From a virus, in the IMG/VR virus record IMGVR_UViG_3300009620_000084, positions 1 to 20,761 of that record: 20,761 bases of DNA. The stretch is one strand, 5' to 3'. Shown here piece by piece: positions 3,212 through 20,663 of this stretch. The first letter of the stretch is position 1; each line of letters begins with the position of its first letter. The position numbers and the translations under genes are program-made. A model generated the notes under the pieces. The model did not search any database. It saw only the letters and a list, made by a program, of their open reading frames with translations, and was not told where the DNA came from.

Positions 3212-3477
3212 TATCTGTCGTACCCCCGTTCCATGGCCTTATGAAGCCTGTAGCGGTTCTCCATAGCCTCTATCTTCTTCATAAAGGGGGAGCAGCCGTT
3301 GTTGCAGCGGGGCTTACCGCAGGTGGCGGCGTTACATAGAAAGCAATAGCCCCTCTGCTTACCGCTACCTGGGTGGATGATGCACACACCATTGCAGTGG
3401 GGGCAAGTATAGGTATCGTGCTCCTCGACCTCACCCCATAGCCCGGTGGTTATAGCGTAGCCACCTACTCTAGCCAC
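3211..3477 (-). CDS. Small cysteine-rich zinc-binding protein
   Basis: The protein is about 88 residues if started at GTG 3477. The same frame is also open from an ATG at 3522, but that would overlap the upstream gene by 58 bases. The GTG overlaps it by only 13 and has GGGAG a few bases upstream. It contains eight cysteines: C25-PH-C28, C32, C45-FL-C48, C53, C58 and C62, with IIHPGSGKQRGYC between the pairs. This suggests two metal knuckles. The C-terminal quarter is charged and helical (MKKIEAMENRYRLHKAMERGY). There is no signal peptide. Role unknown: DNA or RNA binding and a structural zinc protein are both possible. It sits among tail and fibre genes. Confidence 0.65.
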   Translation of the reverse strand: MARVGGYAITTGLWGEVEEHDTYTCPHCNGVCIIHPGSGKQRGYCFLCNAATCGKPRCNNGCSPFMKKIEAMENRYRLHKAMERGYDR

Positions 3478-3954: not shown

Positions 3955-4323
3955 TTAGTATCCTGAGCCTTCCTCTACACCCCAGACCATGCCAGAGATG
4001 GTAGCACTAGCGGTTACGTCCAGGTCCAGAGTTTTACCCGCTGTAAGGAGGATGCCATCCCCTAAGTCCGGGGAGTTATGAACTCCAGCCACCGCGAGTA
4101 AAGGAGTTTGTGCTATCACCGTACCTGCTGCATTGGAGTCCTGGAACTCTATAGCAGAGGCGGCAGATGCCGAGAGACACCACCCCAGGAGCCTGATACG
4201 GCCACTGGCGGTGTCAGAGGCGGTCCAGATGGTCTCCGGTGTGCCTGCTGTTATTGCGTTGGCGTTTATCATCTTAAAGATGTTCGCCTGGATCCTGGCC
4301 GATCTAGTCTGACCAATAGCCAT
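3955..4323 (-). CDS. Small beta-rich structural protein
   Basis: A 122-residue protein with a basic N-terminus (MAIGQTRSARIQANIF) followed by alternating short strands: IRLLGWCLSASAASAIEFQD, GTVIAQTPLLAVAGV, ILLTAGKTLDLDVTASAT and MVWGVEEGSGY. This layout (a G-W-x-hS segment, an E-F-x-D turn, L-D-h-x-x-T near the end) is seen in small phage virion proteins that form a beta sandwich. No enzymatic motif is visible. The neighbours are similar in size and composition. A decoration or tail subunit is likely but not proven. Confidence 0.6.
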   Translation of the reverse strand: MAIGQTRSARIQANIFKMINANAITAGTPETIWTASDTASGRIRLLGWCLSASAASAIEFQDSNAAGTVIAQTPLLAVAGVHNSPDLGDGILLTAGKTLDLDVTASATISGMVWGVEEGSGY

Positions 4324-5500: not shown

Positions 5501-6316
5501 TTAGACCACCAGGATAATGATTTGGCATCCTAGCATCAGAGGATCATCGCCTCCGGACCCTTCAGCAGCCTTGTCAACGTCCACCGCGACGATGTTTCCT
5601 GGTTGCAGTATGCCGGTGGTATTGAAGGCAGCGGATACGTCAGCGCGGTTCAGGTCATCGGCAGCTACAGACAGAGCCGCAGCAGTAATTCCGTCCGTGG
5701 TGGCTGTATTGGTCTCATCATCCACACCTGCCGAGGTGTCGATGGTGTAAGTGTCCGAGGTATCCAGGAGGGTTCCTACACCGGACCACCAGAGGTACTG
5801 GATAACATTCCCCACATAATTCTGGGGGACCATGAAGGTGTACCCAGCTGCTTCAGAGGCAGCTGCCAGCAGGACTCCTGTGTAGTCGTTGCGCTGGGAG
5901 AAGACAGCTGTTCCGTCCGTCATTGGGGACAGGTTGATGGTCAGCTCCTCCGGGATCTTAATTCTGGCATTCAGGGTGGAGGTGGACAGCGAGAAGGCCA
6001 GGACTTGAATGAGGTTGTTGGCCCCAGTTGGCCTGGTAGCCGTCAGGTCTCCAGCCGTTGCGCTCAGGTAAAATGTATTCCCCTGAGTATAGGGTGCATC
6101 CACATCTTCGATGAGGCACTCTGTGCAAAGGGCTCCCTGGACGCCTGAAGCATAGGTGGCCGTGGAGAAGGCCTCAGCGAACTTGGTCTCGTCATCGGCA
6201 TCGGCCAGTTCCCAGTCGGTGCCATCGAAGTAGAGGGGATCCCCGGCTGTTACGGCTGTGGAGCCTATAGTAGCCTGGAAAACACCTCTTGCGCGTTTAA
6301 CAAATGGATCTGCCAT
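5501..6316 (-). CDS. Head decoration-like protein, probably two-domain
   Basis: A 271-residue protein directly after the major capsid gene, the usual place for a decoration (cement) protein. The N-terminal half resembles DUF2190-type capsid cement proteins: a start of alternating strands, then AGDPLYFDGTDWELADAD (about 24-41). An NLSPMTDGTAVFSQRND linker region follows, then a second beta-rich part with AGYTFMVPQNYVGN and a C-terminal strand (LMLGCQIIILVV). The protein is acidic and Thr/Ala-rich. It is longer than the usual single-domain cement protein, so the second half may be a knob or a fused subunit. AGAAGGAG lies about 9 bases before the ATG. Confidence 0.6.
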   Translation of the reverse strand: MADPFVKRARGVFQATIGSTAVTAGDPLYFDGTDWELADADDETKFAEAFSTATYASGVQGALCTECLIEDVDAPYTQGNTFYLSATAGDLTATRPTGANNLIQVLAFSLSTSTLNARIKIPEELTINLSPMTDGTAVFSQRNDYTGVLLAAASEAAGYTFMVPQNYVGNVIQYLWWSGVGTLLDTSDTYTIDTSAGVDDETNTATTDGITAAALSVAADDLNRADVSAAFNTTGILQPGNIVAVDVDKAAEGSGGDDPLMLGCQIIILVV

Positions 6317-6348: not shown

Positions 6349-7308
6349 TTAAGCGGCGGAATCTATTCCACCTAGACCTATGATCTGCTTGGTGGAGAAG
6401 GTCAGGCCCTGTAGGTAAACCACAAGCCTGAACTCCTCAATCTCCTCATCTCGCTTGATACCCAGGTTACGCATACGGGGTTGCATGACCGGGCCATTGT
6501 GGAGGAGAGTGTAGCCTTCGTTCTCTTCACCGAACCGGACTCCGAAGATGGAGGTGGCGCTGGAAGAAGGCCATGTGCTGGAATCATTGTAGGTCTCTGA
6601 ATCAGTGATGAAGTTGGTCCGCACTATGGGGATGCCATCGTACATGGAGACCTTGTGCCCGAACATATCAACATTGGACTCGTAGATGCCTGACACTGAA
6701 GAGGCCCTGGCCAGTGAAGAGAGCTTGCGCCTCATGGTGTTGTTCATTATCAAGGCATCGGGTTTGGTCATACCATCGTCAATCTGGTCGATCATGGCAT
6801 CCAGGCGGTCCATGGTCAGCTCAGTCTCGGCTGCACCGGGGCCGTCAATATTGCCATCGTCCATGGCCATCATGCGGGTCTCAGCACGGCACAGGGAGTC
6901 CAGGCCCTCAAACTCAGTGGTGACGGACTCAGGCTCACCCTGGATCACTAGCCGGGAGATCTCCCTGGTCAGGGACTTTACCATCAAAGCAGTGTTGACT
7001 GCATTGGGATCCTGGACCGATCCCCTGGTGTCCCGGATGTACATATCCACGCCGGACTGGGAGCCTACAGTCACCAGAGAAGCAGTCTTCTTGGTGAAGG
7101 TGGGCTTGGTGGTTTCCCAGGTGTCTCCCACCTGGTGGGTCTCTGCACTGGGAAGGGTTAGCTCACGGTTATAGACCAATGAGTTGCCTTCAAAGGACTT
7201 GAACCGAAGCATGGCCATCAGGAAATCCGCTGTGAGGATCTCCTTGAAGACCCCTTTCATCACTGGATCTTTTTCAAGTTTGGCCCACTCGGTTAGTGCA
7301 TCTGCCAT
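6349..7308 (-). CDS. Major capsid protein, HK97-fold type
   Basis: A 319-residue protein following the scaffold gene. The sequence shows features of HK97-type capsid proteins: an N-terminal helix, a strand and loop region (LTLPSAETHQVGDTWE, about 50-65), a helix with REISRLVIQGEPES (about 115-128), FEGLDSLCR (133-141), and the segment KPDALIMNNTMRRKLSSLA (182-200), which is the typical 'D-hhMN-x-x-hR-x-L' of this fold. The C-terminal strand region reads EFRLVVYLQGLTF. No cleaved N-terminal delta domain is present, which fits a separate scaffold protein. The ribosome site AGGAGG, about 5 bases before the ATG, is among the strongest in the window and suits a highly expressed gene. Confidence 0.8.
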   Translation of the reverse strand: MADALTEWAKLEKDPVMKGVFKEILTADFLMAMLRFKSFEGNSLVYNRELTLPSAETHQVGDTWETTKPTFTKKTASLVTVGSQSGVDMYIRDTRGSVQDPNAVNTALMVKSLTREISRLVIQGEPESVTTEFEGLDSLCRAETRMMAMDDGNIDGPGAAETELTMDRLDAMIDQIDDGMTKPDALIMNNTMRRKLSSLARASSVSGIYESNVDMFGHKVSMYDGIPIVRTNFITDSETYNDSSTWPSSSATSIFGVRFGEENEGYTLLHNGPVMQPRMRNLGIKRDEEIEEFRLVVYLQGLTFSTKQIIGLGGIDSAA

Positions 7309-15922: not shown

Positions 15923-17791
15923 TTAGCCAGCCAGGTTCTGCCCAGTCCTTCCGGGCTTGGCTACCTGCCCGGTAAGGGGCTGTCTGAGGTTCCTGGCTGC
16001 TCCCATTATCTGGTTGGCTCCTTGTTGAGCGGAGCCTCTACCCAGAGAGGACCCTATAGGCTGTCCGTCTGGCCCTATTAGCCCTGCTGGGCCTCCAGCC
16101 GGTTGTCCTCCCTGCCCCCCAGCCAGTTCGCCTTCCATCTCTTCGGTTAGAAGCTCTTCCAGACCCATCCTTCTGGCCGCTACTATAGCCATCTTCTGGG
16201 CCACTGGAGGGAGCTTACGGATCTCCATGGCAATGAGCCTCCAGCGTTCCTCTGTGACGTTCTCCCTCTTTGCGTAGTCCTCCCAGTAGGACTGATCGCT
16301 GAGGACACCCTGTTGCAGCTCTGCCAGTCCGAGTTCTCTGAGCTGGAGCTGTAGTACCGGGTCTATGACCTCAAAAGTGACCTTGTTGGAGTAGTCCCCT
16401 TTGATCATAGAGGGCTTCAGGGTCTTGCCTTCTACTCTGATCTCCAGGTCCAGGGTGTCTACGAACTGCATTATATGGGATGCTGAATTGGTGGCCAGGT
16501 GCTGTAACTGCGCGGTGGGGGCTATGAACTTCCTGCCAGAGGCTGTGTCCAGGATGGCTTGCTGCCCTACCGTGCTGATGCCTTGCTGACGGATACCGGC
16601 CTGGGACCTGGAGAAGGTGCCAAATTCTATGTCCTTGTCCAGGCCGCTCTGGGCCTCCAGCATCCAGCGGGAGAAGTTGTTGACCTCCTCCAGGGATACC
16701 ATGGCCAGATCAGGGACCTCTATGATGTCATCCCCTCTGGCTAACTGAGCAGCGAGTTCTGAGGCGTCCATAGTGGTCAAGCGCCTGCGCCAGGTGGCCT
16801 GCATCAGGGCATTGTGCATACCTGACATGGCCTGGGCATGGGCTTTTAGTGTGGGCATGATCGGGTCCAGGAGGCCCACAGCCAGGTATTTGACATCGTT
16901 CCCGTTCTCTGTGCCGGTGTCCGTTATCACCTGGCCGAATCCGGCGAATGCGTGACCGAAGGGCATGAGCTGCCAGTCGTTTGGTTCTACGAACAGGAAG
17001 GACTTGTTGACCATGAGGGCATGCCAGTATTCGGTCCAGTACTCTATGGCTTCATTAAACTCAAAGGGGTTCTGGCGCTCCTCCCAGAGTTGAACCCTCA
17101 TATCCTTGCGCTTGGGTTTCCCGTTCTTCTGTAGCCTGCCTGCTGTTAGCTCGTAGAGTTCCTGGTTAGTCCTACGAGCCAGTTTTAGGGCCACAGAGGG
17201 CTCTTTCTGGAAGGGGTCCAGTAGGATGGTGGAGGGGTGAGGGGCTCTGGTGCGGAAAGGCATGATGTTGCGCTTCCGGTTGGACCATACGTCCATTCGG
17301 AGTTCAAAGTCATCCCCGGATTCACCAGTACGGATCCTGGGCTTGTCTCTGGACTGCCTGAGAGACTCGGTGTGGATAGCGTCTTCTACAATAGTGTACC
17401 CGTATAGAAGGAGGTTCTTGGCTGCTTGCTTCCAGGTGAGAGAAGGCTCCCTCAAGGACACCTGGTGCATGATGGACTGCATAGCGACTTCTAGCTGGTT
17501 AGCGGTCTCTTCGGCCTCGTCACTATCATCCAGGGGCCAGCGTTTGACCTTGGGCTCATGGGAGAGGAGATGGTCTACGGCGTGGTCTATGATTGCCCGT
17601 CCCCTGGAGGGCCTGAGCCACTGAGGACGGTTGGAGCCCTCCCACCATAGGGGAAAGGTCCCGTAGTAGTAGGAATCGGCTGTCCGCCAGTTTTCGTGAG
17701 CTTCGTTCCAGAGTCCAGAGAGATAGGACTTCATGGAGTCAACGTAGGACTCGTCAGGCCTTTCTGATATGTTCAGCTCACCTTGGGGCAT
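15923..17791 (-). CDS. Portal protein
   Basis: A 622-residue protein directly downstream of the terminase, the usual position and size for a portal, the dodecameric ring through which DNA enters and leaves the head. The N-terminal part has NWRTADSYYYGTFPLWWEG (about 34-52) and RGRAIIDHAVDHLL (about 64-77), typical of portal proteins with their 'N-x-h-h-D-x-x-V-x-x-L' helix. The middle has the LLYGYTIVED segment, a hydrophobic strand pair, and later a long helical part (ASELAAQLARGDDIIEVPDL) ahead of the stem region. The C-terminus (about 555-622) is low-complexity, Gly/Gln/Pro-rich. No clear Shine-Dalgarno precedes the ATG; there is a 23-base gap after the terminase nuclease stop. Confidence 0.75.
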   Translation of the reverse strand: MPQGELNISERPDESYVDSMKSYLSGLWNEAHENWRTADSYYYGTFPLWWEGSNRPQWLRPSRGRAIIDHAVDHLLSHEPKVKRWPLDDSDEAEETANQLEVAMQSIMHQVSLREPSLTWKQAAKNLLLYGYTIVEDAIHTESLRQSRDKPRIRTGESGDDFELRMDVWSNRKRNIMPFRTRAPHPSTILLDPFQKEPSVALKLARRTNQELYELTAGRLQKNGKPKRKDMRVQLWEERQNPFEFNEAIEYWTEYWHALMVNKSFLFVEPNDWQLMPFGHAFAGFGQVITDTGTENGNDVKYLAVGLLDPIMPTLKAHAQAMSGMHNALMQATWRRRLTTMDASELAAQLARGDDIIEVPDLAMVSLEEVNNFSRWMLEAQSGLDKDIEFGTFSRSQAGIRQQGISTVGQQAILDTASGRKFIAPTAQLQHLATNSASHIMQFVDTLDLEIRVEGKTLKPSMIKGDYSNKVTFEVIDPVLQLQLRELGLAELQQGVLSDQSYWEDYAKRENVTEERWRLIAMEIRKLPPVAQKMAIVAARRMGLEELLTEEMEGELAGGQGGQPAGGPAGLIGPDGQPIGSSLGRGSAQQGANQIMGAARNLRQPLTGQVAKPGRTGQNLAG

Positions 17792-17814
17792 TTACAACAT
17801 TCTCACTATGGAGG

Positions 17815-18753
17815 TTACCACCCGTAAGGGTTGGGCCGGGACTGCATCCTTCCGGAGTAGCTCCGTGGGAAGTTCCTGCCGGTCATGTCTTCGCCATCGA
17901 TCCCCAGGACTCGCCTGTGCTCTTCCTTATGTCCTGGGACCCTGGCTCTTTGTGCTCTGTCCCGGATCTGGTTAGCTATACCGATGGCGAAGGGATAGTC
18001 ATCGTGAGCGCCTTGTTGAGCCTCTATTCTACCATGCTTGTTCGGATTTCGTATTACGGAGTAGAACTGGGCCAGGCCTTCCTCGCTTGGTACAGTGATT
18101 GCCCTGGTGTTACAGGCTGACTGGAGGTCCCCCCAGAGGACGAATCGGGAGCCTGTACGCTGCCTGGTATCGGCGGTGTGCCAGCCTGGTTTCCCGTCTT
18201 CCCGGTAAAAGAGCCTTGGGTAGTGGGCTTCAATGGCAACCTTGATGGTCTGGATCCCCCAGTCGTTATCCTCTATCCCCCAGATTGGGTTCCTGTAGTA
18301 TTCCAGCAGGTCCATGGAGGCCACGGAGAGCTGCTCAGGCTCCATGAGGGGACTCATAACGTCTGCTACCGTGTATCCGGTCTCGGCGTCTATTATGCCG
18401 GTGACGCTGAAGTCCTGGCCTACCCCGTGGGAAGTGTCGGTCCCTGCCGCGTACCTCTTCCCAACCTGGAAGTCCTGGAATATGTTGGCGTAGAAGCCAG
18501 CCCCAACCGGGAGGGTCTTTATCGGGGATCTCAGGTCCTGTCTCATGGCCATGAGGGTTTCAGGGCTGAAGAAGACCAGGGTCCTGGCTGGGGCCAGGGC
18601 CTCGTCTTCATCTCTGGGGTATTCCTTCTCAAACCTGGCTACGTCATCGGCTTCGGACCGACGCTCCTCGTACCAGGCCTCATCACGGTCCGGTCGGACA
18701 TCCCAGCCATAGAAGAGCTTGGTCCAGCTTCTAGTCTGGCTTCCTTGCTGCAC
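17815..18753 (-). CDS. terL: Terminase large subunit, nuclease domain (separate frame)
   Basis: This frame encodes the RNase H-like nuclease half of a large terminase, which cuts the concatemer during packaging. From GTG 18753 it has 312 residues. After SWTKLFYGWDVRP (9-21), a linker segment typical of terminases, comes YAAGTDTSHG (101-110) with the first catalytic Asp (D106). The second acidic motif is IEDNDWG (160-166), and the third is QGAHDDYPFAIG near the end. All three acidic groups are present, so the domain should be active. The GTG has AGGAG five bases upstream, inside the ATPase frame. The same frame is also open from an ATG at 18792. It overlaps the ATPase reading frame, which stops at 18731, and lies +1 relative to it. 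It could be an independent protein, a programmed frameshift product, or one sequencing indel. Confidence 0.75.
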   Translation of the reverse strand: MQQGSQTRSWTKLFYGWDVRPDRDEAWYEERRSEADDVARFEKEYPRDEDEALAPARTLVFFSPETLMAMRQDLRSPIKTLPVGAGFYANIFQDFQVGKRYAAGTDTSHGVGQDFSVTGIIDAETGYTVADVMSPLMEPEQLSVASMDLLEYYRNPIWGIEDNDWGIQTIKVAIEAHYPRLFYREDGKPGWHTADTRQRTGSRFVLWGDLQSACNTRAITVPSEEGLAQFYSVIRNPNKHGRIEAQQGAHDDYPFAIGIANQIRDRAQRARVPGHKEEHRRVLGIDGEDMTGRNFPRSYSGRMQSRPNPYGW

Positions 18754-19378
18754 GGTATCTCCTCTTGAAGAGCGAATCCGCGTTGTCCCCATTGGAAGTG
18801 GAGGTCAGGATAAGCTGACCTCCATTGTCATTCAGTGTGGGCTCCACTGCCGTGACGTTTTCTTCCAGGTGAGGGTGAAAATCGGCCTCGTCGAATACGG
18901 CTTTGGTGGCTGTATAGGACCTTCCGGCTTTCTGAGTGGAGGGCAGGGCACGTATCCAGGAGTCAATGGAGGGAAATGCCAGCTCTTGCTGGTTTTCCAG
19001 GGACTTTACCTTCACCTGGAGCTGAGGAGGGAGTGCTTGATAGATGAATTTGGACTTCCAGAGGAGCTGTTTGCACTCTTCTTCCCCCTGGCTGAACATA
19101 AGTAGCTGTGCCCCAGGCTCAAACTGGGCACAACGTAGGAAATGGGCTGCAATAAGCCAGGAAGCCCCTATCTGGCGGGACTTTAGCCATACTATGAGCT
19201 GCTGGGTGGTTAAAACCTGGATGGCGTCTACCAGATGGGGCCATTTCTCGAATTTTATCTTCCCACGGCCTGGTGGCGGCTCCAGGATGTAGACGTAATC
19301 TACAAAGTACTCCAGGTATTGCCTTGAAAGCTCCAGATGAGCTACTTCTGCGACTGTTTCCTCTACGGTTTGTGTCAT
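18731..19378 (-). CDS. terL: Terminase large subunit, ATPase domain (separate frame)
   Basis: A 215-residue protein with the ATPase (motor) half of the packaging terminase. The Walker A-like motif is LKSRQIGAS (65-73), a form used by many phage terminases. Walker B is AVFDEADF (160-167), with the catalytic Glu in the usual DE pair. The coupling motif LTSTSNG is at 191-197. A segment LLMFSQGEEE (92-101) is typical of this family. The frame then stops at 18731, soon after LFKRRYRAA, just where the nuclease domain should follow. That domain is encoded in the overlapping +1 frame (17815-18753). The ATG overlaps the stop of the zinc-ribbon gene (ATGA). Normal large terminases are one chain of about 450-600 residues, which matches the two parts together. 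Confidence 0.8.
   Translation of the reverse strand: MTQTVEETVAEVAHLELSRQYLEYFVDYVYILEPPPGRGKIKFEKWPHLVDAIQVLTTQQLIVWLKSRQIGASWLIAAHFLRCAQFEPGAQLLMFSQGEEECKQLLWKSKFIYQALPPQLQVKVKSLENQQELAFPSIDSWIRALPSTQKAGRSYTATKAVFDEADFHPHLEENVTAVEPTLNDNGGQLILTSTSNGDNADSLFKRRYRAARKPD
18751..18765 (-). promoter_or_regulatory. Internal ribosome-binding site and GTG start for the nuclease frame
   Basis: On the minus strand AGAGGAG (18765-18759) lies five bases ahead of GTG (18753-18751). The site sits within the last codons of the ATPase frame, 20 to 34 bases before its TAG stop. A strong site with correct spacing exactly at the frame change supports independent or re-initiated translation of the nuclease half. 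Confidence 0.55.
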
Positions 19379-19524: not shown

Positions 19525-19992
19525 CTAGACATTGTACCTTGGCGCTTTCAGCACTGTTGGTAGTATTGGCGGTGGCATGTGTGTAAGGGGTGGAGGAGCT
19601 ACCTTTGGGGCTTCTGTAGGAGCTTCCGGCTGGGTATAGTGCTCTAGATCACTCGCTAGCCTTGGAGCGGCCAGTGCTAGAAGCTCCTCCTTTGACATTT
19701 GGGCTATAAGGTGCAGGTGCTCAGTCTGGATCGGCCCACCTTCCGGTGACGCAAGCGCCATGTCCTGGACTACCTTGCCGAATCCACGGTCAGCCAGCCA
19801 GTTGCAGGCGTCCAGCTGGTCCTTTTGCCTCTTGCTCTTTAGCCCACGGAGCACATCTATCATGAAGTCTACCAGCTCCTCGCCATTGCGAGTCTTGGAC
19901 CTGATCATGGCACCAAGTCCCAGGGGCCTTCCACTGGGGTTACCTGACTTCCCTGGCTGGAATCGGAAAGACTTGAGCTGTTCTGTTGGCAT
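19525..19992 (-). CDS. DUF5681-type protein, candidate terminase small subunit
   Basis: A 155-residue protein with FQPGKSGNPSGRPLG (11-25), the signature of the DUF5681 family, whose genes often sit at the head of phage packaging operons. A helical region follows (about 30-115, for example ELVDFMIDVLRGLKSKRQKD and SKEELLALAAPRLASD), and then a Pro-rich C-terminal tail (about 120-155). The position, first gene before the terminase ATPase, fits a small subunit that recognises the packaging site. The start ATG has a G-rich ribosome site (AGGGGGG) four bases upstream. Assignment is by family association and gene order. The protein could also be an unrelated DNA-binding protein. Confidence 0.6.
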   Translation of the reverse strand: MPTEQLKSFRFQPGKSGNPSGRPLGLGAMIRSKTRNGEELVDFMIDVLRGLKSKRQKDQLDACNWLADRGFGKVVQDMALASPEGGPIQTEHLHLIAQMSKEELLALAAPRLASDLEHYTQPEAPTEAPKVAPPPLTHMPPPILPTVLKAPRYNV

Positions 19993-20044: not shown

Positions 20045-20065
20045 TTTGGGTCCTACTTTTACTTA

Positions 20066-20110
20066 TTTGTGGTTTTATTTCTTGTTTTATTTCTTTGTGG
20101 TTTTATTTCT
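20066..20110. repeat. Direct repeats in the leader region
   Basis: The 17-mer TTTGTGGTTTTATTTCT occurs at 20066-20082 and 20094-20110. Between them lies a third copy of its last 11 bases, GTTTTATTTCT (20084-20094). The AT-rich repeats may be terminase or replication-protein sites, or a slipped duplication. Confidence 0.65.
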
Positions 20111-20194: not shown

Positions 20195-20266
20195 GGGGTG
20201 GGGTCTGACCATCGGCTTATTGCAATTGGTTGTAGGTAATAATGAATTCCTAGCTGTTGGCAAGCT

Positions 20267-20320
20267 GCCTTCCCTTACCTTGCCTTGCCTTCCTTTCCTT
20301 TCCCTTCCTTTCCCTTGCCT
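20267..20320. repeat. CCTT-pentamer tract, pyrimidine-rich on the plus strand
   Basis: About eleven imperfect pentamers of the pattern NCCTT or CCTTT. The part from 20292 to 20316 is entirely pyrimidine on the plus strand. It ends about 20 bases before the first TGTGA box. Strand asymmetry of this kind can unwind or form triplex DNA. It could also come from replication slippage. Confidence 0.7.
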
Positions 20321-20341: not shown

Positions 20342-20357
20342 TGTGAAAATTTTCACA
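20342..20357. promoter_or_regulatory. CRP/FNR-like operator, box 1
   Basis: TGTGAAAATTTTCACA is a perfect 16-bp palindrome that matches TGTGA-N6-TCACA, the consensus of CRP-type regulators. The spacer AAATTT is AT only. It lies 350 bases upstream of the small terminase start. Confidence 0.6.
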
Positions 20358-20397
20358 TAGTGCCTATATGGCCTTGTGCTGCCCATTGTCCGACAAG

Positions 20398-20411
20398 TGA
20401 CCCATGGGTCA
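20398..20411. repeat. 14-bp perfect palindrome
   Basis: TGACCCATGGGTCA reads the same on both strands without a spacer. It is not related to the TGTGA boxes. A dimeric regulator site is a likely explanation. Confidence 0.55.
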
Positions 20412-20482
20412 GCTTTCCCATTATCGGCCCTGTACGTGTCTTGTGTGGCCATAGGAGCGATTTAGAACATATGTTTCCCCGA

Positions 20483-20566
20483 CGTAATCCGTAATCTGCC
20501 CCTATCTAGTCAATACGAATACCGTCACCGTTGGTTCAATTGGGTTATTTTGGTTACGAATATCGT
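20483..20566. repeat. Short direct repeats, iteron-like
   Basis: CGTAATC is repeated head to tail at 20483-20489 and 20490-20496. TACGAATACCGT (20514-20525) and TACGAATATCGT (20555-20566) are near-identical copies 41 bases apart. The motif contains ACGA-ATA-TCGT, an imperfect dyad. Such short repeats could be a replication or regulator site. Confidence 0.45.
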
Positions 20567-20613
20567 TATTTAGTCCTCAGATACAATCCAGGCTCAAAAT
20601 ATACCCATTTTGT

Positions 20614-20633
20614 ATTGTGAAATACATCACAAT
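20614..20633. promoter_or_regulatory. CRP/FNR-like operator, box 2
   Basis: ATTGTGA-AATACA-TCACAAT has 7-bp perfect arms and matches TGTGA-N6-TCACA (core 20616-20631). Its centre is 32 bases from box 3, about three helical turns, so both boxes would face the same side of the DNA. Confidence 0.6.
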
Positions 20634-20647
20634 ATCCGGCTTTAGAT

Positions 20648-20663
20648 TGTGAAATATATCACA
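20648..20663. promoter_or_regulatory. CRP/FNR-like operator, box 3
   Basis: TGTGA-AATATA-TCACA, with the same arms as the other two boxes and an AT-only spacer. It would lie near +22 of the promoter candidate at 20685-20712, a position suited to repression, if that promoter is real. Confidence 0.6.

Follow-up and report, generated by a model that had tools for sequence, protein, structure and literature searches.

TGTGA-N6-TCACA palindromes in the divergent early/late control region of an uncultured phage as putative operators of a host-type regulator

The stretch of DNA analyzed here (the window, 20,761 nucleotides of the IMG/VR virus record IMGVR_UViG_3300009620_000084) ends within a divergent region of about 1.16 kb that separates a leftward terS-terL operon from a rightward, presumably early, operon (Table 1). 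The leftward operon runs from a terS-like gene, whose start codon lies 350 bp from the nearest palindrome (box 1), through a split terminase and presumed portal and scaffold genes to the major head protein. The rightward side was read from contig L030 (IMGVR_UViG_3300025286_000522), which overlaps the window (2 differences over 1761 bases; window position = L030 + 15634) and in which the operon begins at 5519 with a GP88-family protein. Two overlapping terminase ORFs, for the ATPase and then the presumed nuclease part, are also present in the related phages L033 (G003, 31945-33572) and L035 (G005, 17160-18750), unlike in L036 (G006), where the terminase is a single ORF. Short direct repeats (TTTTATTTCT) and a polypyrimidine tract occur upstream of terS, at 20057-20110 and 20266-20318 of the window.

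Table 1. Features of the window that bear on the control region.
Feature	Position	Strand	Description
Box 1	20342..20357	.	TGTGAAAATTTTCACA, perfect 16-bp palindrome
Conserved core	20363..20571	-	about 210 bp between box 1 and boxes 2/3; dyad-rich; 82% identity to L033
Box 2	20616..20631	.	TGTGAAATACATCACA, inside the longer palindrome TATTGTGA-N6-TCACAATA
Box 3	20648..20663	.	TGTGAAATATATCACA
terS-like gene	19525..19992	-	155 aa, DUF5681 N-terminus; heads the leftward structural operon
Large terminase, ATPase part	18731..19378	-	215 aa; PHROG phrog_2, E 1.1e-15
Large terminase, presumed C-terminal part	17815..18792	-	separate overlapping ORF, 325 aa
Major head protein	6349-7308	-	leftward structural operon

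Three perfect TGTGA-N6-TCACA boxes are found in the window, at 20342, 20616 and 20648, and no further one was detected there at one mismatch or fewer. The perfection of the three boxes and the 32-base spacing of boxes 2 and 3, both claimed in an earlier note on this DNA, are exact, and the judgement made there that chance is a very unlikely origin is borne out by the absence of such boxes from 100 dinucleotide-preserving shuffles and by a mononucleotide expectation of 0.02 for the entire window and of 0.0008 for its intergenic stretch of 0.76 kb. The count of three holds for the window but not for the region, as L030 carries a fourth perfect box (TGTGAAAAATTTCACA, L030:5141-5156) 14 bases past the window end, at what would be positions 20775-20790. 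The centers of boxes 1 and 2, 2 and 3, and 3 and 4 are separated by 274, 32 and 127 bp (26.1, 3.05 and 12.1 helical turns), all near whole turns, a pattern suggestive of cooperative binding to the 32-bp pair and weakly suggestive of looping over the 274- and 127-bp distances.

The boxes had been described as lying upstream of the late operon. This is correct with respect to the minus-strand terS-like gene (start at 19992). Operons diverge from here in both directions, however, and box 4 belongs to the rightward side: a single base separates it from TTGACA-N18-TAGACT, a rightward-pointing promoter sequence with an extended -10 element (L030:5141-5187 including the box). Taken alone, a promoter scan did not raise this sequence above shuffles; at the same aligned place L033 has TTGACA-N18-TAAGAT without the box and L034 has TTGACA-N17-TACCAT (read directly). 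Box 4 is centered near -45.5, which is not among the canonical CRP activation positions (-41.5 and -61.5). The L033 version of the conserved core contains 26-nt inverted-repeat arms and a long hairpin at L033:4008-4120 (RNA fold z = -6.0; -1.5 for the window core). The dyad-rich core is possibly a leader RNA or an origin, and no Rfam family was matched in the control region. At another place in L033 (1469-1520, minus strand) a Twister-P5 ribozyme match above the gathering threshold was noted. Given their position at the point of early/late control, the assignment of the boxes as putative operators of some regulator is well supported.

Related phages show that the boxes have been gained and lost. 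They had been expected at the same place in relatives, and here the outcome is mixed, as they are absent from the near L033 and L034 and one is kept, in a conserved context, in the more distant L035 and L225. L033, a complete circular genome of 41.8 kb (27-bp terminal overlap) with a TerL 91% identical to that of the window, contains none of the four boxes even at 2 mismatches; box 1 is deleted, a sequence 11 bases shorter takes the place of box 4, and other repeats (TGCAAATGGTTGCA and GCCTGGCAGGC, two copies each) stand at equivalent places. L034 (TerL 83%) has no TGTGA boxes and shows instead two LexA-type GAAC-N4-GTTC palindromes 36 bp apart, while in L035 (71%) a single TGTGA box is retained. 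A box joined to a CRYGCCTAG element is common to L030, L035 and L225 (TerL 40%; one mismatch in this last case), from which it follows that this composite is probably ancestral. L035 also has six copies of GGAAATAAATCTATTTCC (one mismatched), with one pair 33 bp apart and some inside terS (listed at L159:10729, 10762, 16282, 16607, 16707 and 16766), and L198/L200 repeat the palindrome TAAGAN3TCTTA. Across the related set, 24 families of clustered repeated palindromes were counted vs 1.3 in block shuffles; near terS, the palindromes of each relative are repeated 2-6 times and several are paired 32-36 bp apart. Altogether, the palindromes peculiar to each relative and the boxes lost or kept mean that operator sequences turn over fast here while the promoter stays.

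With regard to the regulator, the boxes have the inverted TGTGA arms and 6-bp spacer of the CRP-type core, as had been pointed out, but this assignment is not unique since six of the eight half-sites in the four boxes read TGTGAA (a T precedes four of the eight), as fits Rex and HcpR. HcpR operators follow TTGTGA-N6-TCACAA and GlxR-type operators follow TGTGANNTANNTCACA; the boxes match 12-14 of 14 positions of the former (box 2 in full) and 10-12 of 12 of the latter (boxes 2 and 3 in full). The extended 22-bp CRP consensus of Escherichia coli (AAATGTGATCTAGATCACATTT) is matched weakly, at 12-16 of 22 positions. NrdR, TyrR, LacI and omega-repressor sites presumably differ in arms or spacing and were dismissed. 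The operator (ROP) of Rex, a redox-sensing repressor of Gram-positive bacteria, has the consensus TTGTGAA-N4-TTCACAA (PMC5355995), with which each box agrees at 12-13 of the 14 fixed bases (box 1 at 13). By these comparisons CRP would not be the sole candidate, as the Rex and HcpR consensuses appear to fit equally well.

A phage-coded CRP relative, also proposed in the earlier note, found no backing: HTH_Crp_2 (PF13545) had no match in L030, L033, L035 and L036 (G001, G003, G005 and G006), with about 16 kb of the window's phage lying outside the sampled sequence. A weak Crp-HTH match in G008 (L240) was discarded as a candidate, the ORF preceding a helicase-loader-like ORF and looking like a replication protein. 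The related phages examined yielded no Rex N-terminal domain, and among 50 non-structural proteins of the relatives, many of which lack an assignment, neither an integrase nor a classical repressor was recognized. The best phage-coded candidate may be an RHH-like (ribbon-helix-helix) protein whose gene lies beside the helicase in L033 and L035; it is conserved at about 43% identity across these two and L243-L245. Its model shows a beta-alpha-alpha order, as this fold requires, at low confidence (pLDDT 55), and PDB sequences gave no convincing match. L035 encodes in addition a 76-aa repressor-like protein (phrog_4738). No TerL relative was found in bacterial genomes (genome_contigs), the portal had no match among cultured phages, and a comparison of portal, capsid, polymerase and helicase with cultured phages gave nothing nearer than about 37% identity. 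A literature search on CRP sites in phages returned nothing pertinent.

Tandem TGTGA boxes greatly outnumber the reversed control pattern in viral contigs, with at least 119 stretches vs 4. These loci fall into two classes, TTGTGAA and TGTGAT/C/G, and the window is nearer to the former. TTGTGAA arrays lie upstream of terS or terL in unrelated phages (L103, L064/L116, L049, L041 and L023); the distance from array to terminase was not quantifiable, phrog_2 being too specific to locate TerL in the majority of records. Of 115 LexA-type GAAC-N4-GTTC palindromes in the loci retrieved, 34 stand within 150 bp of a TGTGA box, whereas none of four control palindromes gave more than one such case, an association spotted post hoc and counted in loci picked for tandem TGTGA boxes. 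The triple array TGTGA-GAAC-TGTGA matches five viral loci and had no match in the bacterial and archaeal genomes searched, 257 Gb in total. Interleaved TGTGA/GAAC arrays were observed in contigs of unrelated viruses, at L041:2237-2446, L012:1026-1663, L046:14312-14422, L044:3226-3346, L102:2972-3121 and L155:5141-5240, and the largest arrays count 12 perfect TGTGA boxes, with LexA-type boxes among them. L012, with 12 perfect TGTGA boxes, also bears intergenic TTTCACGTGAAA palindromes, which are parS-like (TGTTTCACGTGAAACA), at 2160-2180, 2455-2475, 3450-3470 and 4090-4110.

Based on the available evidence, we give a probability of roughly 45% to the explanation that a dimeric regulator recognizing the half-site (T)TGTGA(A), probably a host global regulator, uses the boxes as its operators at the early/late divergent region. 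The NADH/NAD+-sensing repressor Rex or a protein of the CRP/FNR superfamily (CRP, HcpR) would be candidates. Such a protein would bind boxes 2 and 3 cooperatively and, at box 4 beside the -35 element, may hold back or modulate early transcription; the near-consensus early promoter speaks for repression rather than activation. Occupancy of box 1 would affect leftward transcription, perhaps of the late genes, and the phage programme would thereby answer to the redox or energy state of the host. Against a host regulator stand the near relatives L033 and L034, which are devoid of boxes, and the palindromes of several relatives (GGAAATAAATCTATTTCC in L035, TAAGAN3TCTTA in L198/L200), which match no regulator familiar to us, so that a fast-evolving phage regulator fits as well.

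The latter is the main rival. It is possible, if doubtful, that the boxes are operators of a non-CRP regulator belonging to the phage itself, with the RHH-like protein as candidate and a specificity that shifts between relatives. The private palindromes that each relative repeats near terS would then be explained, and the RHH-like protein is indeed conserved, in L035 along with the phrog_4738 protein; yet the recurrence of TGTGAA in unrelated phages is not accounted for by a private regulator, the RHH-like fold is of low confidence, and a search for the missing segment of the window's phage, where such a gene would lie, found nothing. We consider it unlikely that the boxes are elements of a replication origin or packaging site (iteron-like or TerS-binding) around the structured core beside terS. 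Boxes 1 and 2/3 do flank this conserved, dyad-rich core, TTGTGAA arrays precede terS in several phages and L033 bears other repeats at equivalent places, but box 4 is outside the core at the early promoter, the core is conserved while the box sequences change, and in other phages the arrays are far from TerL.

That the boxes act as a decoy, titrating a regulator of the host instead of controlling a phage promoter, is somewhat more improbable still: other phages do have as many as 12 perfect TGTGA boxes in one array, along with LexA-type boxes, and the high copy number reached in infection would titrate a scarce repressor, but this region has only four boxes, one of them set tightly against a promoter. 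Chance, or AT-rich sequence without function, would agree with the absence of boxes from near relatives and is strongly disfavored, being hardly compatible with the empty shuffles, the rarity of the control palindrome in viral contigs and the survival of a box in distant relatives.

Operators of a host regulator, the preferred explanation, can be compared with known systems. The boxes share most fixed bases with Rex operators and differ from them in standing in a phage control region, with no Rex gene found in the related phages. They have the perfect TGTGA-N6-TCACA arms of CRP/FNR-superfamily operators and depart from CRP in the weak fit to the 22-bp consensus and in the position of box 4. 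Phage GIL01 has its early and late promoters controlled by the LexA of its host in place of a repressor of its own (PMC4551915, PMC6182141). The resemblance would lie in several host-type operators at early/late promoters and in relatives without a recognized classical repressor, although an RHH-like protein is present, and it extends to the two LexA-type palindromes that L034 has at this place; conversely, the GIL01 operators are LexA boxes and not TGTGA boxes. Immunity operators or stoperators of phages are likewise repeated palindromes that vary between related phages, but the boxes of the window are confined to one region, their motif is common to unrelated phages and no cognate repressor was found.

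Tentatively, it can be proposed that uncultured phages of several lineages assemble their early/late regions from arrays of operators of host global regulators (TGTGA boxes read by Rex or CRP-type proteins, GAAC-N4-GTTC boxes read by LexA) and swap inputs between close relatives, so that host redox/energy state and DNA damage would gate infection without a phage repressor, the window being one example. If a host metabolic regulator binds the boxes, phage transcription would be tied to the redox or carbon state of the cell, as that of GIL01 is to DNA damage through LexA. If true, the replacement of TGTGA boxes by boxes of the LexA type that a sister phage shows, together with the interleaving of both in unrelated phages, would make the sensing of host state a general design of phage promoters.
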